Below are positions 6,101 through 57,800 of a stretch of 64,000 nucleotides of DNA, in pieces. The notes beneath the pieces were generated by a model, which ran no database searches, had not been told where the DNA came from, and was given only the letters and a program-made list of their open reading frames with translations. The stretch is from Tribonema minus. Its lineage: Eukaryota; Sar; Xanthophyceae; Tribonematales; Tribonemataceae. Both the position numbers and the translations under genes were made by a program. Location: the NCBI GenBank assembly GCA_017506865.1, contig JAFCMP010000357.1:67001-131000 (forward strand), written 5' to 3'. Position 1 is the stretch's first letter; the number at the start of each line of letters is the position of its first letter.

Positions 6101-9100
6101 CGGCAGCGTGCCCTGGTGCGCCACTTCGCTGGTGACGCCGGCGGGTGTCTGGCTGGCGCGCAGCGGGCCGGAGGCGCAGCTACGGTGGCGGCAGCGAGCA
6201 GTCGACGAGGCGGTGATGCTCATCAGCAGGGGAGGGGGCTCAGCTGGGGGGACGGCGTGAGCGGGCACTGCGTCTGCAGCCTGCCTAGCGCGCATGCCTT
6301 GCGTGCATGCATTTGTGTATACATTCAACTTTGTGCATACAGAACTTTGGTCATCATTTCAAAGTATATACTTGTATTAGTAGTTTGTGTGCGCTCTCTG
6401 CATCATAGTACGGCACATGGGGAAGTAAAGTGCCCTCATGTAACTGTATCCTATAGGCAAGGTCGCTGCAGCACACACCAGAACACTGCCACAGACTCCT
6501 GTACTGTGTGAAGTCATAGGCACACACAATCGGCACGCATGCTGCGGCAGGCCCACCACTGATTGCAGCCATGTGGCTGGCTGCGCATTAAGGCACGTAC
6601 AGCGCATGCGCACAGTCCAGAACCATACCACTGTATGCTTGCCTACTTAGAATTAGGGTCAGGGTTAGCGCAGGTTTTCCTAACCCTAACCTCCATGCAC
6701 AAAGCCCATGACCACATAGCCATACCTACATACCTGAATCTGTAGACCAGGTACGATCGCTGCGACGCCACCAGCACCAGGATCTCCGACCCGGCCCGGC
6801 GCGTAACTGGCATGGCGCTGAAAAAAGCGGGCTTCATGCCAACGGGCAGGCGCAGCGGCGCCAGCAGAAGACTCGCATCGTCCAGGTGCGTGCGCGGGTA
6901 GAGTCTGAGCCAGTACATGCTGCCCTGGCGCGCCAGCGCAATGACAGCTTCCTCGCCCCACCAGCACAGGCCGCACACCTCCAGCTCTCGCTCCTGCGCA
7001 TCGGTGGTTGAAATTGAAGTTAGGAGCACTCCTCCGTGAGGGAGTTGACATGTTCATGAATCATGCAACCGCGCCTGTTTTAAAACGCACAGACTATCAA
7101 TATCCGCCTGGCGTACATTGCCAATTGCGCACAATGCTCCATACACACATGCCTGTGATTATCTAGAGGGTCCCCTCTCGCTACTGTCGATGATCTTTTA
7201 AAAGTATAAATGTTCACCTGGTGCACATTGCCAAAAACGCGCCACCTCCCCTGTGCTGCGCTGTATACGGCCATTCCACGCCTGCCCGCTACAGCAATGT
7301 GACCGCCTCCCGCACTTGTGCTCACGTGCTGCAGGGGGGCATTTGACGCCAGATACCCTGCATGCAGCAGCAAGCATAAGAGCAAAATAAGAGATCATGT
7401 AGGGTGGCTGACATGAGCACACACGTACGTTAAAGTGTGCATTGCTGATGTCATTTACTACAAACTGGTTTGCGAACGGGATATGCAGCAGAAGCACCAT
7501 ACTTCAAGCTAAGTGGCTCAAAGCATGCAGTTGTGCCACGGCGATCACAATGCAGGAGTTGTGAATGGGATTGAAGGACTGCTCTGCATGGCTTGACCTA
7601 CACAGCATCCAGACAACGCATGCTTTAGAGGTGATCACTGATCAGCATGATACAAACAAACACATGATCGAAGCGTGGCTGGTGATCCATTGCAATTGCT
7701 GAGGTAAGGTAATGCCTGTACTGAGCACTGCCACTGGACATGTTGCCAATGATTGCGCAGTACATACATATATACGTTACTTCAAGTATGAAGTATCAGC
7801 TTTTCCAGAAATGGACTGGTGTCAAACGGCATAGCATCACTGTGAAACAACAAACCATGTCACACCGCACCCTGCCGCAGCCCCAGCACGCGCACAAGGC
7901 GTACATACCTCCGTGGCACGGAAGCACTTCAAGTATGAATGTACTTCAAGTGTGAAGTATCATCTTATCAGCACACAGCGCACATACCTCCGTGACACGG
8001 GAGCACCCGCCAGTACAGCGAATGCGAGTCCCAGGGCCTGGCCTCCAGCGTCACCACGCGTGTGCTGTCCTGCAGACACAGCGGCGCGCCGCTGACCGCA
8101 GAGCCAGCATGTCTCAGCAAGTCGTACACCAGAATGCGCTCCTGCTGCTGCGGCGGGCCCCTGAGAGGGGAGCCCATGCCGCTGCCGGCGACTGCTAGGA
8201 GCCTGCAAGAGTGTGAAGTTGGAGTTGATGTTACAGATGATGTCATGAAAGGGCACGTCATGTGCAATACTCTGCTCTTGCAGATACTGACTGGGTGTAG
8301 TGTCGTCGCACTTGGGGTTACTTAATCTACCCCCCACCTAAATTTGCACAGGTGCTACGATAAGTCGTGCAGTGATGCTCTCCACACACGGTGTCATCAC
8401 ATGGTAGTGGTGTGTAACAGAGGTCACAGTCACTGCATGCATGTTAACATTCGTTCGGCCCATAAAGGTACTGTCATATTGTTCTTGAGAGGAACTGGAG
8501 AAACACACTTGACCACGCACTGCTGATATAGTGAATTATACAGCAAGGAGGTGTCATGCACTTGACCGTCTGGAGAGTATCGCCAGCATGTTCTTCAAAA
8601 GGAACAGCTGCCTCGCTGTTCCCTCACAAGACCTTACTTACAACACGCAAATGCATCCACAGGGCTCTAGCTTCCACGTGCACACTGCAGCTGCCTAAAT
8701 GCATCACGAAGTTGCTGATGATGGCAAGGAATCGCGGTCTGCAATCAAAGTCAATGTCAGTTTCGCCTCACCTGTAGCCATGGTACCCCCACGCAAGCCC
8801 CCTGACACCCCCCCCACCGGACCCCCCAACCCCCGCCCCCCCCGTTGCAGAGCAGCTGAGCCGTGTGCCGTCATCAGTGCTCCACAGTGCCAGGGCGCCC
8901 TCGTGGCCAACTGCCAGCGCGTGCCCATCGTCCGAGAAGCACAGGCAAGTTACACCTCCGGCCGCAAGGTAGGGTCCCAGGCTGAGAGAGTGTAGCTGGT
9001 GGATCTCCACGCCAGCCAGGGTCGCAATGCTGTGAGATGGGAGGCAGATCAGCAGCTGCTGCTGTGAGTGGCAGAGCTCTCATCACTCTCCCAGCACAGG

Positions 9101-12100: not shown

Positions 12101-13463
12101 GGATCGCGCAGCCTAAGGCCAGATTCGCCTACTGTTTTGTCGCCATCAGGCCTAGTGCAGCTCACTTCAAGTGCTTGGTGTCCAAGACAATCCTGGACCA
12201 ATCATTGCTGCAATACAACCGTTGTCGGTGACGTCCAGCGCTGAGTCACCCGGCAGTTGAAGTCACTGCTGCACTGCTGCTACCCGCCCACGAGCATCTT
12301 CACATTTGACGATGCACCCTTTTGGCATTCCTCACCTGCAGTGCCACTTCAACCGGGTTGAGCCACTCATCCTCCTCGTCCTTCCCCCCCCCTGCCAAGG
12401 GCTGGTGCACACCTGGATAATGCGTCTCCAGCCAATCCGGCACTGCAAACTGCATCAGTGGTCTCCGTGCCTGCTGCCCCGGTGGAGGCTGTTTGGGCAC
12501 CACTCTGCAAATCAGCAACCTCCCGGAGGCTGTGACAGCTGCCAGCGCCGTTGAGTCCTGTCGCGGTTCGCGCACGCATGGAACGGTAAGAAGCCGGTGC
12601 AAGGGCTTGAGTACAGCTTTGAGGTTGGCAGCCAAGTACCAGCTGCAGTAACGCCAACAATCATGGCGTGAAAGCCTTGAAACGCAGCGTTGTGGCGGTG
12701 CTGATAGATTTTCCATGTGCACTGTGTGTGCAGAAGGTTCTGATAGGAGCAGCCTATGACTGGAAGTGATTTTCCATGTGCACTGTGCGTGCAGACGATT
12801 CTGATAGGAGCAGCCTATGACTGGAGGTTTCAAGTACAAGAGCATGTTGAGCTACGAATTCCTACAAAGCAGTCGTGAGGCCTGCATGAACAGGGCGCCT
12901 GGCATGTGTAGCAGTGGAGGCCGAGCAGACTGCCACTTCAAACAGGCATGGTATGGGCATGATTGACCACAAATTCTGCTACAGCACTTGAACTAAGCGT
13001 TTACTACTCATACTCCTACTCCTACCTCGCTGAATGGAAGTGATGCGTGCAAAGCTCACAGCAGGCTGCACTTACGCTTCAAGTGCATATCCTCCTTGCA
13101 TGCAGACAGAAGAAAGTTTTTGCAGAATTGGTGCTTTGTTGACCACAAAACTGAAATCAGAGCACGTCACAGTGACGCCATGTGCACGTGCATAACTTGC
13201 AGCGCTCAATCTCAGTCGACCAACTGCCGTGATAGCAGACTCACCTTACGCCACAGCACACAGCCGCCAGGAATGGCGCCGATCCCAACGCTCATCCAAC
13301 CCAGAGGCACATGATTTTTGTTGCCCGACCATACCGCCAGCCTGTCTGTCGTTGCCACTGCCAGAAGCGATCCCGTTGAATTCAGAGCGAGATCCAGGAC
13401 TTGCTCATCTGGGCCTGCATCGGGGAGGCCCAGCGACCGCAAGCAGCCATAGGGCAAGTACAT
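182..13463 (-). CDS. RIC1: RIC1 homologue (Golgi Rab6/Ypt6 exchange factor subunit), 18 exons
   Basis: RIC1 pairs with RGP1 to activate Rab6/Ypt6 at the Golgi (family knowledge). Exons, in transcript order: 13245-13463, 12336-12557, 11657-11776, 10976-11184, 10416-10677, 9716-9921, 8772-9029, 7988-8202, 7218-7357, 6734-6993, 5841-6218, 5277-5452, 4229-4473, 3751-3978, 2836-3296, 2088-2490, 1131-1479, 182-522. They total 4,692 nt (1,563 codons plus stop) and every phase closes. The start ATG gives MYLPYGCLRSLGLPD, like the plant RIC1 start MYMAYGWP. Remembered RIC1 landmarks recur in order: LLGTAGGDLCKVSWLGE, ALAVGHEGALALWS, GRWRVFGNV, LYPRTHLDDASLL, ARLIEEAY and a LLHLVLRHLL helix. The N-terminal two thirds is a beta-propeller region and the rest is helical. 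The last ~360 residues are Ala/Pro-rich and poorly conserved, so the two final exons are the least certain. Three introns begin with GC. Confidence 0.92.
7895..8005 (-). repeat. Duplicated exon-8 donor edge in RIC1 intron 8
   Basis: The real exon-8 3' edge (from 7988) with its GTATGT donor reads on the plus strand as acatacctccgtgacacgg. An almost identical copy, acatacctccgtggcacgg, lies about 83 bp further left near 7902, inside intron 8. It could act as a decoy or alternative donor. The stretch between the copies is rich in acttcaagta-type motifs. Confidence 0.8.
12707..12828. repeat. Tandem duplication, 61-bp unit, two copies, in RIC1 intron 1
   Basis: Two head-to-tail copies (12707-12767 and 12768-12828) both begin gattttccatgtgcactgtg and both contain gataggagcagcctatgac. 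They differ at only a few positions. No coding potential is evident. Confidence 0.92.
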
Positions 13464-15313
13464 GCTCACGCACGCCTGCACATAACCGCTTGGCCTCTAT
13501 ACAGCGACTCTCTCTCTACTTCTTTCTCTGTCGCAGTTCAAGTTTTAAAAGTTTGAAGTTCTTCGGAAGGGGAAAACCTTATTAGAGCAAGAGCACTTGA
13601 TCCATATGCTGAGAAGCTGTGCTAATACGAAAGCGAATTTAACAAACAGTCAAATAATAATTATGTTGACACAGCTAGCTGCTGTCATCAGCAGTGTGTT
13701 CACATGTGCCACGAGAGGCAGCTCTTTCCATAAACTTTAAACATTTTCTGCAGCAGGATGCGCCAATATGAATATGAAAGCGCAGAGCATGAGACAGGAC
13801 GTTACAACAAGGCACACGCAGAGATCAGTGGACTGGACGCGTCGTCCACACTTCTGCAAGTACCTTGTTTGAAGTGATCATCAAAGGGCATTGAGACACT
13901 GTCAAGCCCAACAACTATGAATTATCTGGTCGCAAGCTGGGCGTTGGCGCTATCCGCTGAGTGGCCTCACATATGATTTTCTGCGTACATACTGCAAGCA
14001 GCACATCCGGCAATAAAGGCAAGCATCCACGATATGATGGGCTTCTGCGCACCCTAAGAAAGAAATAAACATTGAAAAGGAAGTGCATTATCTGGGGCAT
14101 AATCAGTAGCCGGTCTGCACTGCCTGTACACATGTGTAGGCTGCCAAGTTGGATAGGCGCGGTGGTCGCCTCTCTCTCTCTCTAAAACTTTTTTTGTAGT
14201 TCAAGTTTGAAGTTCATGCTTCCATTAGAGGAGGAGCATGATCCTTTTTGCTGAGAAATGTGCTGATACGAAAGCGAGTTCAACACATTAATCAGACAAT
14301 GATTGTATTGACACAGCTACTGTAGCTGCTGTCATCAGCGGTGTGTGAACATGTGACACAAGTGGGGCTGCTCCTTCCATACCTACGTTGCAAACATTTT
14401 CTGCAGCAAGATGCGCCAATGTGAAAGCACAGAGCATGAGACAGGATGTATAACAACAACAATGAGGCACATGCAGAAATCAGTGGACTGGGTACACTGT
14501 CGATACTTCTACAAGTACATTTGTTGAAGCGATCGTCAGTGCGCATTGAGACACTTTCAAGTCACACAACAAACATGAAATTGCTGGTAGCAAGCTGAGC
14601 ATCCACAATCTGATGGGCTTTTTGGCGCCCTGAATGAGAAGTTAATGAAAAGAAGTGCGTTATTCGGGTTGTAATCAGTAGCTGATCTGCATCAATGAAC
14701 TGCCCTGTGTGGGCTGCCAGGTTGGCTAGGTGCGGTGGTCGCAAGGAGAAGTCCACCTAGCAGCCAAGTAGCCTTGAGGACGCTAACTCGTGCCCAGAGT
14801 GTCTCAATGTCGAGTCCAGCTTGCCCATGTGAAAAACGCCGCCATGACTAATAAGTGTCGTGAGTTACAACTTGACTCACTAGTCATGTGGTCTGGTGTG
14901 TGAGCACCTATGTCTGGCACGGCTGTATCTTGGCACAGCACACCGCAGATTAGCTGCAGGTCCACGTACAATTCATGGACTGGATGCATCTGTGATGCTT
15001 CTGAAAGCCAATCATTGTGTCAGGGCTCAGTGTGTGGCAACATAGCTGATACGTACAGCAACTAGTACAAAGCCCAGCCCTCCTGTTGCGTAAACTTGAG
15101 GATGGGGTTTACTCCCCTTTACAACCACAAGCAACACCAGCCACGCCAGGACTGATGGTACAGGCCACTCTGGCCCTGCATCGCACGCCCGACAGCAGCG
15201 CTGCAGTGATGCATGCAGTTTGTATGGGCGTGAGCCTGCGGGGTGCACTAATGGGATGGTGATGCTCAGCCGTTGCACCCATCGCGCCATACCATCATCA
15301 CTTGTTCAAAGAG
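13464..15313. other. Spacer between RIC1 start and copine 3' end
   Basis: No exon with credible splice borders or protein similarity is seen here. Most of it is the diverged tandem duplication listed separately. The RIC1 promoter should lie just right of 13463, but no recognisable core promoter motif is visible. Confidence 0.6.
13508..14741. repeat. Diverged tandem duplication of a ~0.6-kb segment
   Basis: Copy A (about 13508-14169) and copy B (about 14170-14741) are head to tail. Each begins with a CT-rich run leading to gttcaag and a tttgaagtt motif. Each then carries, in the same order, tgctaatacgaaagcga or a variant, the ttgacacagcta block, cattttctgcagca, agatgcgccaat, cagagcatgagacagga, atcagtggactgg, a gatgggctt block, and ggtggtcgc at the end. 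Copy B is about 90 bp shorter. Neither copy has a convincing open frame. It may be a non-autonomous element or a plain segmental duplication. Confidence 0.85.
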
Positions 15314-25800: not shown

Positions 25801-28800
25801 CGGTGCTGAGCACTGCTGGCATCATGTGCTTTTGATGTGCTGCAGCTGACGGTTCAGTGGAATGCTGTGCAAGGGCCCCATTGAGCTGCTTTACAGTTTT
25901 CTGTCAATTCTCTGTACACTGAGCTGCTGCTGGTGAGTCTACCGCCGTGAATGAATGGATGTGGAAGTGCAGTTGAAGTTGAGAGCGCGGGGACGCAATG
26001 GATGAGCATCATCATCACCTGTACGCAATGAACGAGTGCGGGTTCGGCTGCGCTGCTGTTCCACTGATGTGGGCAGTGCCATGCAATGCCATGCATCTAC
26101 AGTATGCTCCACTCATAGGTGTGTGCAGTGCACGTCAAGCCATCACCGCACAGCCTTGGCCTTCACAACATGCATTCAAGGGTACATGGTGCAGACCTGG
26201 TGGTCATAATTTTCTGCATGTGATACCTTGAACTGCGTACACAGATGTCGGCGAGCTTTATTCAGCTGGCCTAATTGATTGTACCAATGTCGCCTGGCAT
26301 GTGGAAGTATACATACAGACATGTCTTTTGGGGCTAGGGTTGAGGTTAGCATACAGAGGGAATGCAGATAACAGCGCAACAGTCATATTGTAGCATTGTA
26401 GCACCGCATGATGTGCGCCACAACTGGGCAACAGCCTCGCGCGGAGCTGCTGTTGGGTCCACCGTTGTGCACTGCTGAAAGCGCATTGCATGTGAAGTTG
26501 AGGTTGAACGCAGTTGCGGCCACGTTGACGCAGCACTCGTGTTCCACATCAAGTGGTGTGCACCGTTACTGAAGGTAAACAAGATGAGCTTCAGCAGCGC
26601 TGTCGACGGGTTGATATACTTTGGGGTATATGCCAGTAGATTACATATCTATACATGTATGCACAAGTGGCAGTGCTCAACACGGACTCGAGTCATGCAT
26701 GGTAGTGTGCTCTGTTCATGGTGCCAGTGACAGCACACCACCCTATCACACAGGCCTACCACCCTCGTGACATGGTATCCAAATCTATAGCATTGGTGTA
26801 GAATCAACACAAACGCAAACATGTTGGTCACGATTTTCTGCATGTGATACCTTTGACTACAGACACGAAGGCTGGTGAAGTTCAGTCACCTGGGCTTTTG
26901 AAACTGTCCACATGTTGCCTTGCACATAATGGACATGCCTGTCACATGACATTTTTGACACCACAATCGTCACAAGGACACCACAATCGTCCCAGTTAGT
27001 CCTGGCAACTGTGGCATGACGTAATTTGCGCCACAACTAGACAAGTGCCTCTTGGTGGCAGAGATACCCCCAAATGAGCCTGCCGAACTCACACTGTAAT
27101 CCAGGTAGAACACTGGCAGCACCTCAACTCGGCCATGCAGTACATGCAGCAATGCCAGTTGACGCTCCCTCTTGAGCTTCTCCATATGGTAGTGGGTGAC
27201 TAAATCGTTCTGCAGCAGAGAGTGGTAGATCAGAAGGCTAGGGGTCAGGGACAAGCACCACGTGCGCGTAGCGTCGGGTATTGCCTGTCACCAAATCAAG
27301 GCTGATGCTGCTTATACCACGTTACCGATACGAGGACAAGTACAGAGCAGCTCAATCATTGCACTACTAATGGTATGCTGTGTCACTTTCCTGTGCAGAA
27401 GTGAAACTGACCGTAGCCTGTACAGATGCAGTTATTGAAGGGGTGTCGTCCACACTCCAAGCGCGTCATAGCAGTGACTGTAATATTGAGCACGTCATGT
27501 CATGTGCATGTCTGCCGGCCCAAGGCTTCGCCTAAATACTACCCCCAACCCTGCCCCTAACGCCAAGACAAGGCAAGGCCTGCAAAGCAAAGCTGGTGAA
27601 CATAAGCTGTCACAGTGTCGTTACGTACACTTCACCATTGATATGGCTTTGCTCGCACCTTTTCGTCCTTCAGCACCCCTCTGGCGTACTTGGCATACAA
27701 GGCGTGCAGCTCATCTTCTGACGCAGGCTTGGTGCTTGGCACCTGGGGGTGTGCAGCGGCAGCAATGCTCAGAAATGACCGGCTGTACGGAGATAGGTGT
27801 TGCAAAGGGTAATCAACAGATCTGACATATCACACAGCTGAAGAGCAGCAATGCCACGTAATACGTGATGGTATCCAAAGGTTTTGACGCACGTGCTGTC
27901 AATGCTATCTGGGGGCTATGCGCTTTGTTTCTGCTTCATTCATGGTCTGTCCTGTTCACTGGAGTGGACGGCATTACTTTAAAGAGATATCTTTGCGGTT
28001 CACCAACAAGCGATAATGTTCTGCAGGCTCATCTGCATTCGCAATCGCAGTGATTGAACGCACGAGATGACGGCCACGCATGGCCAGCAATCGTCGGCGC
28101 ACACCAGCCCTCAGCATGCGGAGATTCAACGTCAAACAGTGTCACATGCTTCAAGTTGAAGTACCATGCAGGACGCTTTGATGGCCATGTGCCCATCTGG
28201 CTTGTCAGTGGCTTGTCAGCACCTCCCCATGCTTTCAATCAAGTCATTGTCACCACGTGATCTGGTGATGCGACGCACCTGCAGGGAGGTCTTGTGCGCG
28301 TGTACACTGAGCCGTGCCACCACATCAGTGCTCGGCACCTGAGAGCAGAGCATGGCAGGGGTCACGAATACAATTATACGTTAGTATATGCATGACCAAA
28401 TGGTGTGTACACATGTGACCTTGACTACGATTCAAATGCTTGCATAGACACATACACGCATACGCCACTGCAATACGAGGTGTTGAAAACTTATGTTGGG
28501 GAGCTAGAGAGGTGCCAAAACGAGCCCGCCACTGTTTTTCATTTTCAGCATTTCAGCCATACGATGCAGAGCAGATCTGAGATTGCGCAAGTGCAAGACC
28601 TTCCTCTTTGCCGCAAGAAGAAAAGGTGATCCATCTCATGCCCTCATGCCTCTTAGATGATGCGTAACTGCTTGTGGCGATAACTCTCCACACTACAGCT
28701 TGATGCAACAGGTGCGCACTTCAAGCCAGAATGATATGCACGACAAAATCAAATTGCAAAGTCAGAAAGCAGGGCTCGTTATTTCCATGTCACTGGCCTA

Positions 28801-34636: not shown

Positions 34637-49868
<15,232 letters not shown>

Positions 49869-51893: not shown

Positions 51894-54800
51894 ATGGAGG
51901 AGGTTGGGCCTGTGGCGCTGACTCTCGTCTTCGGAGCCAATGCAGTCCTTGCCCTGTGCCTATGGGGGCATGAAAGGAGTGCGAAGCGTGCGTCGGGCGA
52001 GTATGCAGCGGCCGCTGCTGCCGACGATGGAGCGCCTGCCAAGCAGTCGGCCAAGAAGCTATCGGGACCGCTGACGTCGAGTTTCAGCTCCATCAAGGCC
52101 CTCAGCGCGGAGACGCTCAGGCTGAGCATCGTCATGCTGACCATCTACCTGTGCGAGCGGCACCCACCTTTTCCTCACTCCAAGAAGGTCAGCCGCCCCG
52201 ATTCAGATGTGCTTTACTTGCAACCCAAGACTTGGCGTATCGCCAGTGGGACTCTTTCGGAGTGAACGAGGCAAGGGGAGCTGTCTTTTACTGCTCTTGC
52301 AAGATCACAATTCTTGTTCGCAACTCACAACACTTCAAATTGCGTGGTTGGTCGCATCGATTATGCGCTGCTACCAAAGCAATGCTTCACGGAAACGAAT
52401 CAAAAGATCGTAGAGCTGCACATTCTTTGAGCGATACAAACGATGACAGCGCGGCAGCTGCCAGCCTGCTATCACTATTAAAAAGTCGCAAAGCAATTAA
52501 ATTGTATCATGTCAGGTGTGAAGGACGTGCAGAATCACTTGATGCCATGAGTAATGCTCACTGCATCTGTCACATTCAAGCCCCAGTCAATCAACTGCCT
52601 CCATGCTCTTTCAATATTTTCCTGCACTTCTGTGTTTTCAATTCTGCCATGCAGGCACACGACATGGATACGTTCTGGTGCATGGTGGCGATGCTGGCAA
52701 TCTGCTGCGCCATGAACGTTAGGAAGGGCAAGTCCACGGAGGTGCTGAACAGGGAGCAAACGGAGGAATGGAAGGGCTGGATGCAGTTCATCTTCCTTCT
52801 CTACCACTATTTCAGCGCACATGGTGAGTGCCACAGAAAACCTGGATTCTTTCAATTGCTGCATTTTTCAGGGATGAATGAGGTGTGGGGGTTCGTCAGC
52901 GCTGACAAGGAGCTGGCTGCATTGCATGATCGACGATCGTCATCCCAAATAATCAATTGCAAAGCCAGAGCGCCATGAAACGTCCAGTCGTGATGCCGAA
53001 AACATGAATGTAACAACTTCGTAGGACAGGATCAACTTCTGGTTCAGCACTGAATTTCAGGTCATAAGCACCGTGACAGCATCTACCGCGCTTCTACCTT
53101 GAGGAGCTCATGGAAGCAACATTCAAGATGAGGCTGCATACACTGCCTGAGCCTATCTCACACTCAACGCAGCTCACCACTTGCACTATGCCAAATCTTG
53201 TGCTAACAACGGTGATGTGTTTTTTGTGAATACTCTACACGCGTTTAGTTTTGTTCACAACAATGTGTTGCTGTGTTGCTTTCTGGGTGGGCACACAAAG
53301 CAACATTTGGCCATGTACAACGCTGGTGGCCCCATAACGTTCATGGAAGCTCCCCAAGTTCATTCAGTTCCTTGGCAATTTGCATGTTTGTAAATCAGCT
53401 TTTCCACCTGAAGCACTGCACAAAAACAGGCATAGCACTGGCCGCACGCCCCATGAGAACCTGCACAGGGCAGCACACTCATCCATAACTGACATGGGCA
53501 GCTGCTGCAACACACTGCGACGACGACGCTCAACATTGTAATACCCCACAATAAGTACATGCTCTTGCTAACCCTGACGTGACCGCAGTGGCGCGCACAT
53601 TGTGCAATCTGTCACAGGGATGATAATCAAGGCAACACCAGCGCTTGAAGTCGCTTGCTGGAATCAGCAGCGCCGGCGCGCCTGTGTGCTTGTGTTGCGA
53701 CCGTTATGATAGATTGATCGTTTAAAGTAGGTGTTCTGCAGTTGCTGTCATGCTGACACGCTCAAACACTTTTTACATTGAGATTCCTCATGGATGCCAC
53801 AACATGTGCCACATGCGCATGTGCCAGAGCACTGAGCACCTGAGTTGAAGTTGAAGAGCTGAGTACCGCAGTGCAGTGACCATCAGAAGCAGCACAGCTT
53901 ACAACAAGGTACCAAACATGCACGCAAGGTGCGCACTGCATGCGGTTTTGAACTCGTACACTGCGACAGTTACATCAGTTACAGGCAACCACTGACGCTC
54001 ACCCGGTTGCGATGCCCGCCCCCCGTGCAGAGGTGTACAACTCCGTCCGCGTCATGATCACGAGCTACGTGTGGATGACGGGATTCGGCAACTTCAGCTT
54101 CTTCTACATGAAGGGCGACTACGGCGTGGTGCGTCTACTTCAAATGCTCTGGCGCCTCAACTTCCTGGTGACGCTCCTCTGCCTCGCCCTCGGCAACACG
54201 TACATCCTCTACTACATCTGCCCGCTCCACACCTTCTACTTCCTGGTAGTGTACGCGGTGATGCGCGTGCTGCCCTCCACCAACTACACCACGGGCGTGC
54301 GCTGGAAGCTGCTCGCAACAGCGCTCATCATCTACCTGGTCTGGGATGCCGATCTGGGTCTGTTCAACAAGATCTTCTTCTTCCTGGGGGATACGCCCAA
54401 GATTGGCGCGGGGTCGGGGGAGATGTGGGAGTGGTACTTCCGCACGTCGCTGGACCACTGGTCGACGTTCCTGGGCATGGTGAGTACCGGAACGCTAGAC
54501 TTGTTGATTTGTAGACAGAATAGCTGTGTGTGTAGGCCATGCGTGAGGGTGTGAGGGACTTGCATGGTGCTTTGTTGGAGTTTCGTTCGTGGTCGGGCGG
54601 TAGGGTGCAACCTGCCTCACTGCCAGCCTTACTACCCACAACCAACTAACCCCAGCCCTCATCTCATTCTGCCCTTGCCCCCCCCCCCCCCTCCCTCCCC
54701 CGCCAGCTGTTCGCGCTCAACTTCCCCGTAACGTCGCAGTGGATCAAGAAGGTGGAGACGCTCCCCACGCGCCCGCAGTGGATCGTCAAGGGCGCCGTCT

Positions 54801-57800
54801 CAGCGGCCCTGGTCGCGGCGTTCGTCTGGTGGGCCGCCACCATACTGCCGCAGCCCAAGCTCCAGTACAACACCAACAACGCGTACTACGGCGTCGCGAT
54901 ACCGCTGCTCACGTACGTGTTCCTTCGCAACCTGTCGCCGACGCTAAGAATCCACTATGTCGAGCCGCTTCACTCGATAGGCAAGATCACCCTTGAGACG
55001 TACCTCATGCAGCACCACGTCTGGCTCACGTCGAACGCAAAGACGGTCCTCACGCTTGTCCCCGACTCCCCGCGGCTCAACATGGTGGTCACCACCACCC
55101 TCTACGTCCTCCTCTCCAAGGAGCTCTACCGCCTCACCATGAGCCTGCGCGGCATGCTGCTGCCCGACGCCAAGGCCGCGTGCCTGCGCAACCTGGCGGG
55201 CCTCGTCGCGGTGCTGAGCGCTGCCCTCGGGCTCGCAGCAGTGCTCACCGCGCTCGAAGCGGGCCCGCTGGCGCTGTGCGTGGCGGTGGCAGCGCTCGGC
55301 GCCGCGACCACTGCCGCCGTGCACACGCTGCTGCTGCACTCTCCCAAGGATGCCGATGGCGCTGCCGGAGGCGGCGGCGGCGGAGGCGGGGCGCTCACGG
55401 CAGCAGCCGGCAGCGGCGGCGGTGACAGATACAATGGGGGGCTGCTGAGGCCTGCGGCGATGGTGCCGGCGCTGGTGTGTCTGCTAGTGGTTGGGGGGGG
55501 GCTGGGGCTGCAGCGGGTGGGGGGGCGAGGGGGGCTGGTGACGCCGGCGCGCGCGTTTGAGGAGCACATTGGCCCCCACGATCACTGCCTGGCCAACATC
55601 AACCGCGGCATGTGGGCGACGGTGAGTGAGCGCACTTCAACTTCAGTTTCCACACACACATACTTTTATGCAGTTGCAGGTGAAGTTGCATAAACTGCAT
55701 GGTTGAGTATGTATTGCTTGTCGCAACTTGTCGGTGACGGAGCAGTTATTGAGCTTGCACAGAAATGTTTACACTGCGCCCTCTTCGCCAGAGTTGCATA
55801 AAGACTTGGCATGAGCCCGTGCACTTCATGTGACACACAGGTGTGATTCTGCGCCAGGCGCTGCATAGCCGCATTCGCATCCTGTGAGTGGCAGAACAGC
55901 ACACATAATTGCGGCCTTCCTGTGCGCATCCATAACCTGATGTAACGTGCCTGTTGAGCGGGTGGTTGCACTTGCGGTTAGGGCGGTGGGTGAGTACTGC
56001 CAACTTCAACTCAGACAAAGAAACGCGCCACTCCTATCGGCATAACACGCTTTGCTGATATTCATACCACAGCATCGCTACTGTGTCATTTTGTGTCTAG
56101 GTACTGCTGTTGTTGAAGTTAGGTGAAGTTTGCTTTGTGCTACGGTGTCAATCATGTCTAGTTGTTGAAGTTTGTTTTGTGCTGGTGAATGTTGAGCGCT
56201 GCTGCAGGACACGGCGGCGTGCTCGCAGGCGCAGCACACGCTGTACTGCGACTCCCACGCGTGGAAGTGGGTGGACATTCCTGATGAGTGCCACTTCAGG
56301 TACGTACGTATGTGTATGCATGTTTGAGTATGCGCATCGTATGTGCTTGTGTGATCATCGAGGTGCATGCGACTCAATTGTGGGTTGTGACAACATGGTA
56401 AAGTGATAAATGAGTAGTGGGCGAGTTGAGGTTTGCATCTCAGTGAATATCATCAGTCTTCCGCCACGCTTTGGTCAGCAGAGAAAAGAAGGCGTGATGA
56501 TGCCTTGCGCAGCTTTGGTACACGTTCATTTACAGCTTCTGACTTTTTCAAACCATATTCAAACTTCAACTTTGTACATCATAGCTCATGCCAGTGCGCT
56601 CCATTTTGACACTGTCGCTTTTGCGCCACCTACAAGCAGCAGCAGTTCGATGCGACATGCCATGCGCAACCTGTAGCAGTACCACCTTGAAGTCGCACAG
56701 CTCAGCACAAAACCCTTTCTTCAACATTGAAGTTTCACCTCCCCCCGCCCCCCCCGCCGCGCCCCCTAGGTACCTGCCACCGGACGAGATAGCGCGCAAT
56801 CTGTAGTAGTTTCACCTTGAAGGCACACGGTTCAACGCCAAGCCCTTACTTCAACATTGAAGATTCATTCCCCTCCGCGCCCCCCCAGGTACCTGCCGCC
56901 GGACGAGATAGCGCGCGCCAGCGCGGCGCGCCACGTGGCCTTTGTGGGCGACAGCGAGCTGCGCATGATGTACTACGCGGTACTGCGCACAAAACCATCA
57001 CTTCAACATTGAAGTTCCCCCCGCCCCCCCCTCCGCGCCCCCCAGATACCTGCCGCCGGACGAGATAGCGCGCGCCAGCGCAGCGCGCCACGTGGCCTTT
57101 GTCGGCGACAGCGAGCTGCGCATGATGTACTACGCGGCGCTGCGCGGCATCGGCCAGACCACGCCGCAGGCCCACGACTCTTCCGCGGAACGGCACGCGG
57201 ACCTTTCCTGGGCCAGCGGAACCGGCGCCGGCGCCACGCGCGTGAGCTTCCGCTGGGCGCCATACGCGCGCAACGTAACTGCCGCGCTCGGAGCGCTGTC
57301 GCGCAGCAGCGCCAAGGAAGGCGGCGCGCCGGATATGGTGGTGACGGGGGCGGGCCTGTGGGATGCGCTGCACGTGCGGAGCGTTGACAGGTACAGGGGG
57401 GATCTGGAGGGGGTGGCGGACGCGCTGACGGCGCCCGCGCTGGGCGGCGCGCTGAAGCTGTGGCTGGTGACGACGGCGGTGGCGGAGAAGAGGCTGCCCG
57501 CGGGGGAGAAGCAGGAGTGGCTCAAGGAGGAGAAGCTGGCCAAGTGAGTGCGGCACATTTTGCACTTGCAGTCAAAGTTGAAGTTGAAGTTGCGCTGGTG
57601 TGTCTCGGCGGGTGTGCGTGGGGTGCAACTACCTCTAGTGTCACACTGCGCAAGCCCCCCTGATAATTTGCCAGACTGGACCTTCAGGTAGTTGGCGCAC
57701 AAATTCAGCTTGGGGAGTGTGTGACTGGTCAGTTCTCTGGTGGAGAGCTATCGTATGTAAAGACCATATACATATCTACTTCTGTGTCCACAAGGAGTGC

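Follow-up and report, generated by a model that had tools for sequence, protein, structure and literature searches.

Internal gene duplication covers exonic and intronic sequence within genes. A related case is that of the potato RdRp gene, in which a tandem duplication across an intron-exon border has been reported, and RNA reads reveal splicing of the copy as a new exon together with a new intron (PMC4974935). Tandem duplication also counts among the accepted routes to intron gain (PMC3443670; PMC2891723). In rice, tandem duplications are highly enriched among mutations of 50-200 bp, with a share that declines above 125 bp; they have been attributed to the repair of adjacent nicks, and structural mutations in exons are purged relative to introns (PMC7971508). 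In mammalian cells, fill-in synthesis by Pol alpha-primase at breaks gives rise to small tandem duplications (PMC8355091). Introners spread by self-copying into many genes (PMC9860276), and intron lengths and repeat shares, quantities measured otherwise than the edge copies described below, have been given for relatives of Chlamydomonas (PMC8226300).

The acceptor edge of an esterase-like gene in the window (the whole 64-kb stretch of DNA analysed here) resembles the potato RdRp gene (PMC4974935) in that the unit joins the 3′ part of an intron to the 5′ part of the exon that follows and is repeated head to tail. Unlike in potato, the copies appear unused, number up to six per array and occur at many edges. 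Compared with internal gene duplication at large, the focus here is on edge copies that are neutral and affect about one edge in eight in the main sample. The kind is already known from internal gene duplication and potato RdRp. The esterase array itself probably arose by successive local tandem duplications that by chance extended across an intron-exon border.

Table 1. Positions, within the window, of the esterase-like gene, its array and the companion array
Feature	Position	Strand	Basis
Host gene, part: Cas1-type acyltransferase domain (PF07779), then esterase-like part with FVGDSELR	53952..57547	+	Pfam
Upstream exon, ends ...WVDIPDECHF + AG	56208..56299	+	HMM gene model, translation
Donor GTACGTACG of the array-bearing intron	56300	+	HMM gene model, translation
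Esterase array, copy 1: intron end + first 28 nt of exon	56664..56797	+	
Esterase array, copy 2: intron end + about 100 nt of exon	56794..56988	+	
Esterase array, copy 3: intron end + full exon 57046-57543	56987..57543	+	
14-mer cttcaacattgaag	56719..56732, also 56849-56862 and 57001-57014	+	
Companion array, SAM-domain gene: three copies of intron end + exon start	48831..49238	+	

The esterase array occupies 56664-57145 on the plus strand, at the 3′ end of the intron 56300-57045, and consists of three head-to-tail copies of a 3′ intron end and an exon start with exon parts of unequal length (Table 1). The initial annotation had placed three copies at 56670-57142, which is right to within a few bases, and had correctly assigned the GDS motif to copies 2 and 3; it had also announced a second, independent array in the 64-kb window, and this one, in the SAM-domain gene, is equally real, with exon starts at 48933, 49071 and 49208, the last of which leads into the full exon. 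In the esterase array, the AG of copies 1, 2 and 3 ends at 56769, 56888 and 57045, and the exon start follows at 56770, 56889 and 57046, respectively; copy 2 carries FVGDSELR. On translation, onward reading from the acceptor of copy 1 leads into intron sequence and stops, and onward reading from that of copy 2 leads to a stop. Joining 56299 to 57046 yields ...CHFRYLPPDEIARASAARHVAFVGDSELRMMYYAALR, collinear with a paralogue. Copy 3 is taken as the functional copy on the basis of the HMM gene model and of this collinearity. The array qualifies as an internal gene tandem duplication, since its copies are direct and head to tail, span an exon border and lie within one gene. The best self-alignment of 56300-57145 scores 103; none of 200 dinucleotide shuffles scored above 16.

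The copies differ in detail. Copies 1 and 2 read AG/GT at the border (donor scores 0.5 and 4.2) and copy 3 reads AG/AT. In the intron parts, copies 1 and 3 differ at 5/59 positions and copies 1 and 2 at 17/95, and copies 2 and 3 share 95% identity across 119 nt of mostly exon sequence. Because the pairs differ in likeness from part to part, the copies have probably undergone some exchange, or the events followed a complex order. Patch repair would be marked by blunt or short-homology junctions and by units mostly below 200 bp; the one junction that was read, between copies 1 and 2, shares GCGC (56794-56797), common to the end of the former and the start of the latter. An introner or other dispersed element was considered and rejected, as a genome search with 56640-57146, in which the best candidates were scored and very common words skipped, matched the array itself only. 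Like introners, the copies bulk up sequence at introns; unlike introners, which are self-copying into many genes, each unit here copies its own neighbour (PMC9860276).

The Pfam search left the esterase exon itself without a match. The part of the gene that follows the PF07779 domain is presumably an esterase, a name that we base on the GDS motif. A paralogue of this part with 51% identity is present on contig 528 (locus L011; G000:C528:343562-344041 and flanks); it is collinear with the window gene and devoid of copies 1 and 2. Together with the solved homologues of the HSP90 and AMP-binding genes described below, which are also collinear without extra copies, and with the lack of constraint on inner copies over 25 arrays, this indicates that the ancestral coding sequence holds one copy only. 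By eye, the paralogue lacks an intron both at the position of the array and at the next one, after EKLAK, so that the introns were either gained in the window gene or lost in the paralogue.

Recurrence was assessed in 264 kb from the 158-Mb genome (554 contigs), composed of a main sample of 20 evenly spaced 10-kb stretches on contigs 1 and 2 (18 and 2) and of the window. Gene models came from our own strict GT-AG HMM, trained on the same 264 kb, and contain small spurious exons, such as a false 6-nt exon that adds two residues to HSP90. For exons of at least 75 nt with a coding score of at least 8, 40 nt on each side of the edge was compared with 1 kb on the intron side, and a match was counted if the copy covered the exon-intron junction in the neighbouring intron; 9 of 436 edges had too little flank and were left out. 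Junction-spanning copies were found at 50 of the 427 usable edges (23 acceptor, 27 donor), as compared with 1 of 2135 draws, or 0.2 per set, when introns of other loci were swapped in. Four of these matches lie in the window, three of them in the esterase array; with the window excluded, 46/339 edges in 12 of the 20 stretches still bear a copy. The frequency is thus far above chance (46/339 versus 1/2135), and the scan with a control proposed by the initial annotation, carried out here on HMM-predicted edges in sampled stretches, bears out its expectation of an excess beyond the esterase gene. In four stretches on four other contigs, analysed with the HMM frozen, 3/46 edges were matched, all in one stretch, and the control gave 0/230. 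Seven of the 50 matches are whole-exon copies according to the HMM models, one of them being a view of the esterase array. At 25 edges in the 264 kb, both window arrays included, there are at least two inner copies. Local duplications are also held by 10 of 14 loci picked by the 14-mer of Table 1, which, being chosen by motif, stand outside the rate estimates.

Edge-copy frequency varies strongly by locus, from 0/33 to 9/21 edges. Some 10-kb stretches are without any local duplication pair (L015, L019, L041, L044) and others have 21 or 47 (L023, L026). One stretch (L013; G000:C1:50001-60000) has a GC content of 72%, is called coding over 75% of its length and contains long ORFs, one with a DUF5832 match and two others without a Pfam match; it may represent a foreign, perhaps virus-derived, insertion rather than ordinary intron-bearing DNA. 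None of its 33 predicted edges is matched, and the main sample minus this stretch gives 46/306. In another stretch (L020; G000:C1:750001-760000), a donor-edge array at 6469-7503 comprises six copies, the functional donor at 6548 and five more, spaced 169-186 nt apart, with pairwise matches that are 82-92% alike; judged by this likeness, it is a long and fairly young array. The density of exon-edge copying looks unusual, as judged from one genome alone. Among the literature matches listed, which covered few subscription papers, none described decoy exon edges arrayed at such density in an alga.

The fate of the inner copies was followed by a relative-rate test on the 25 arrays with at least two inner copies, with 2000 bootstraps over arrays. 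The seven whole-exon matches were left out of the comparison of exon and intron parts, and the test omitted the second view of the esterase array at 56888 and pairs with fewer than 12 aligned nt on either side. Free inner copies predict a lower divergence in exon than in intron only for pairs of an inner with a functional copy. Such pairs differ by 12.8% in the exon and 19.3% in the intron part (ratio 0.66; 95% interval 0.54-0.83), but inner copies differ from one another by 18.9% and 19.9% (ratio 0.95; 0.78-1.16). The order of the two ratios was reversed in 0/2000 bootstraps, and without the richest locus they are 0.67 and 0.95. By codon position, the differences are 10.9, 12.1 and 14.3% between inner and functional copies, and 16.1, 20.7 and 17.8% between inner copies. 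As the ratio is 0.66 relative to the functional copy but 0.95 among the inner copies themselves, these divergences show the inner copies to drift freely, without coding constraint. Of 91 inner copies, 83 would introduce a stop if used, 5 would shift the frame and 3 would insert sequence in frame.

These results bear on the reading that inner copies are functional, either as tandem alternative exons or as newly gained introns, which we consider improbable. In one variant, copy 2 of the esterase array would be an in-frame 81-nt exon (56889-56969) with an exon-derived donor at 56970. The HMM predicts exactly this in-frame exon, the acceptor of copy 2 scores 7.4 and that of copy 3 only 5.4, and potato RdRp is a published precedent (PMC4974935). 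However, the donor at 56970 scores -0.1, under the 5th percentile (1.3) of predicted donors, the protein would repeat the GDS segment, a repeat that the paralogue lacks, and inner copies are under no coding constraint across the 25 arrays. Tandem duplication of mutually exclusive exons was rejected for the last reason as well, and because the esterase array copies an exon edge only.

Inner splice sites are weaker on average than functional ones (4.6 versus 6.2; p = 0.002). The splice dinucleotide is kept at 37 of 43 inner sites and absent at 6, as compared with a naive expectation of 26.7 kept; a neutral figure of about 34, by our own arithmetic, is fairer because the functional site is canonical by construction. 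At 19/43 inner sites the score equals or exceeds that of the functional site, so that the spliceosome must in some way be kept from using them. We tentatively put forward that, with decoys sown by local tandem duplication at roughly a tenth of exon edges, the spliceosome may routinely choose among two to six complete and near-identical sites on grounds other than strength, for which exon-body definition or an outermost-site rule would be candidates. If this is true, the decoys would constitute a standing load of premature-stop isoforms as well as a supply of new introns. Natural arrays of near-identical sites, many of which match the true one in strength, would also test splice-site cues at near-constant strength.

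Repeat pairs in the 264 kb comprise 206 local direct, 2 local inverted, 11 distant direct and 12 distant inverted pairs, and the preponderance of local direct over local inverted pairs identifies the process as tandem duplication. The local repeats form 72 clusters spanning 34.5 kb, with a median smallest period of 126.5 bp (quartiles 103-175.5) and a copy identity of 70-92% (10th to 90th percentile). From the arrays, the initial annotation had suggested a process that copies intron-exon borders. That such a border-aimed process, for example splicing-coupled or reverse-splicing copying with cttcaa/ttgaag at the ends, builds the arrays is, in our view, very improbable. Two arrays in one window and many edges with copies speak in its favor, as does a border peak of 20%, as compared with 4-12% in most intron bins, when all HMM exons are used. 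However, this peak shrinks to about intron level once exons are restricted to strong or anchored ones: the duplication rate at the border is then 26/239 (10.9%) for anchored exons and 17/137 (12.4%) for a stricter set, at or just over the upper end of the rates inside introns (about 4-12%), with no sharp peak. Copies spanning strong borders number 28/232, as compared with 23.3 (sd 4.1) expected, and at least 28 were obtained in 41/300 random placements, so that random placement explains the count. Moreover, 185/232 copies lie wholly outside strong exons (171.5 at random placement), and cttcaa/ttgaag is not enriched at 824 duplication ends. Instead of border copying, the data reveal exon depletion: exon-only copies amount to 10/232 versus 33.1 (sd 5.1) at random, with 0/300 placements as low, which leaves exon interiors three-fold depleted in repeated copies. 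With the stricter exon set, border copies number 17 (13.5 at random) and exon-only copies 10 (26.2 at random). A slight excess of duplications at borders is still conceivable, in keeping with the slight excess seen with strict exons, and slower divergence of the functional exon part alone would favor the detection of border copies over that of intronic ones.

Duplications are not confined to genes, since copies also occur in deep intergenic DNA, in 126/1919 windows (6.6%) versus 10.1% in introns under a second, unvalidated HMM setting; under the first setting, also unvalidated and calling little intergenic DNA, they were found in 6/843 intergenic windows. Read most simply, duplications are widespread and are removed from coding sequence. 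Edge copies look like tolerated mutational debris and not like the product of a special border-copying machine.

According to the reading preferred here, local tandem duplications with units of about 100-190 bp arise all over gene-rich DNA. Those inside exons break the protein and are purged, but a duplication across an acceptor or donor edge is nearly silent, with the outermost copy still adjoining the exon body. Splicing presumably uses this outermost site, which would restore the normal mRNA, and the inner copies would be left as non-coding decoy splice sites, subject to neutral drift and possibly to re-duplication. By analogy with rice and mammalian cells, the duplications may originate when staggered breaks or nicks are repaired by fill-in. 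The smallest periods (median 126.5 bp) resemble the 50-200 bp size class in which rice tandem duplications are enriched, and structural mutations in exons are purged in rice, too; unlike the young indels between rice varieties, old and young layers are here piled into arrays (PMC7971508). Pol alpha-primase fill-in would be a break-repair route of this kind, as demonstrated in mammalian cells (PMC8355091). The arrays appear to preserve a dense, selection-filtered record of local tandem duplication and of material that could give rise to new introns or exons.

An explanation of the copies as repeated protein domains, or as an artefact of assembly, is scarcely credible: seven whole-exon matches among 50 and the possibility that some sample loci hold repetitive coding sequence would allow it, but the examined homologues of HSP90, AMP-binding and Cas1-type proteins lack repeated segments, and the copies mostly differ by 8-30%, unlike assembly duplications. 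For example, the HSP90 gene of one stretch (L031), the product of which aligns with solved HSP 90-beta over 519 residues (801 bits), carries copies of the donor edge at three exons, with GT in two cases and AT in the third, and the alignment runs without them. In an AMP-binding, acyl-CoA synthetase-like gene (PF00501; L023), 9/21 edges bear copies. Here, an acceptor edge resembling GTNKHALWDRLIFAKLRAAL occurs five times at a spacing of 117-132 nt, and one of the five copies has a mid-copy stop codon. The alignment with the carboxylic acid reductase 5msc, the sole printed homologue alignment reaching this edge, matches none of the copies but the one that continues into the remainder of the exon.

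The proposal that each unit starts with cttcaacattgaag proved wrong, as the 14-mer starts 55, 55 and 14 nt inside the units of the esterase array. Nor does cttcaa/ttgaag mark breakpoints: it was present within 10 nt of 51/824 duplication ends (6.2%), which is no enrichment over 26/412 copy midpoints (6.3%) or nearby random points (6.2%). The motif occurs 1.93 times per kb outside exons versus 0.69 inside. The 14-mer is itself over-represented in the genome: as an interrupted inverted repeat, CTTCAACATTGAAG, it has 191 occurrences, as compared with 9 for a reversed control pattern.

Elsewhere in the window, a 36-nt direct pair at 7892/7971 (7892-8006, minus strand), 79 nt apart and holding GGAG/GTATGT, lies directly beside an HMM exon end; it is probably the donor-edge duplication that the initial annotation had reported for a putative RIC1 gene. 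Three local tandem duplications, at 12707-12828, 13581-14742 and 26191-26924, lie wholly within predicted introns and thus fit duplication anywhere. Telomere-like TAGGGT/AACCCT units form short internal runs at 39279-39341 and 42931-42966.
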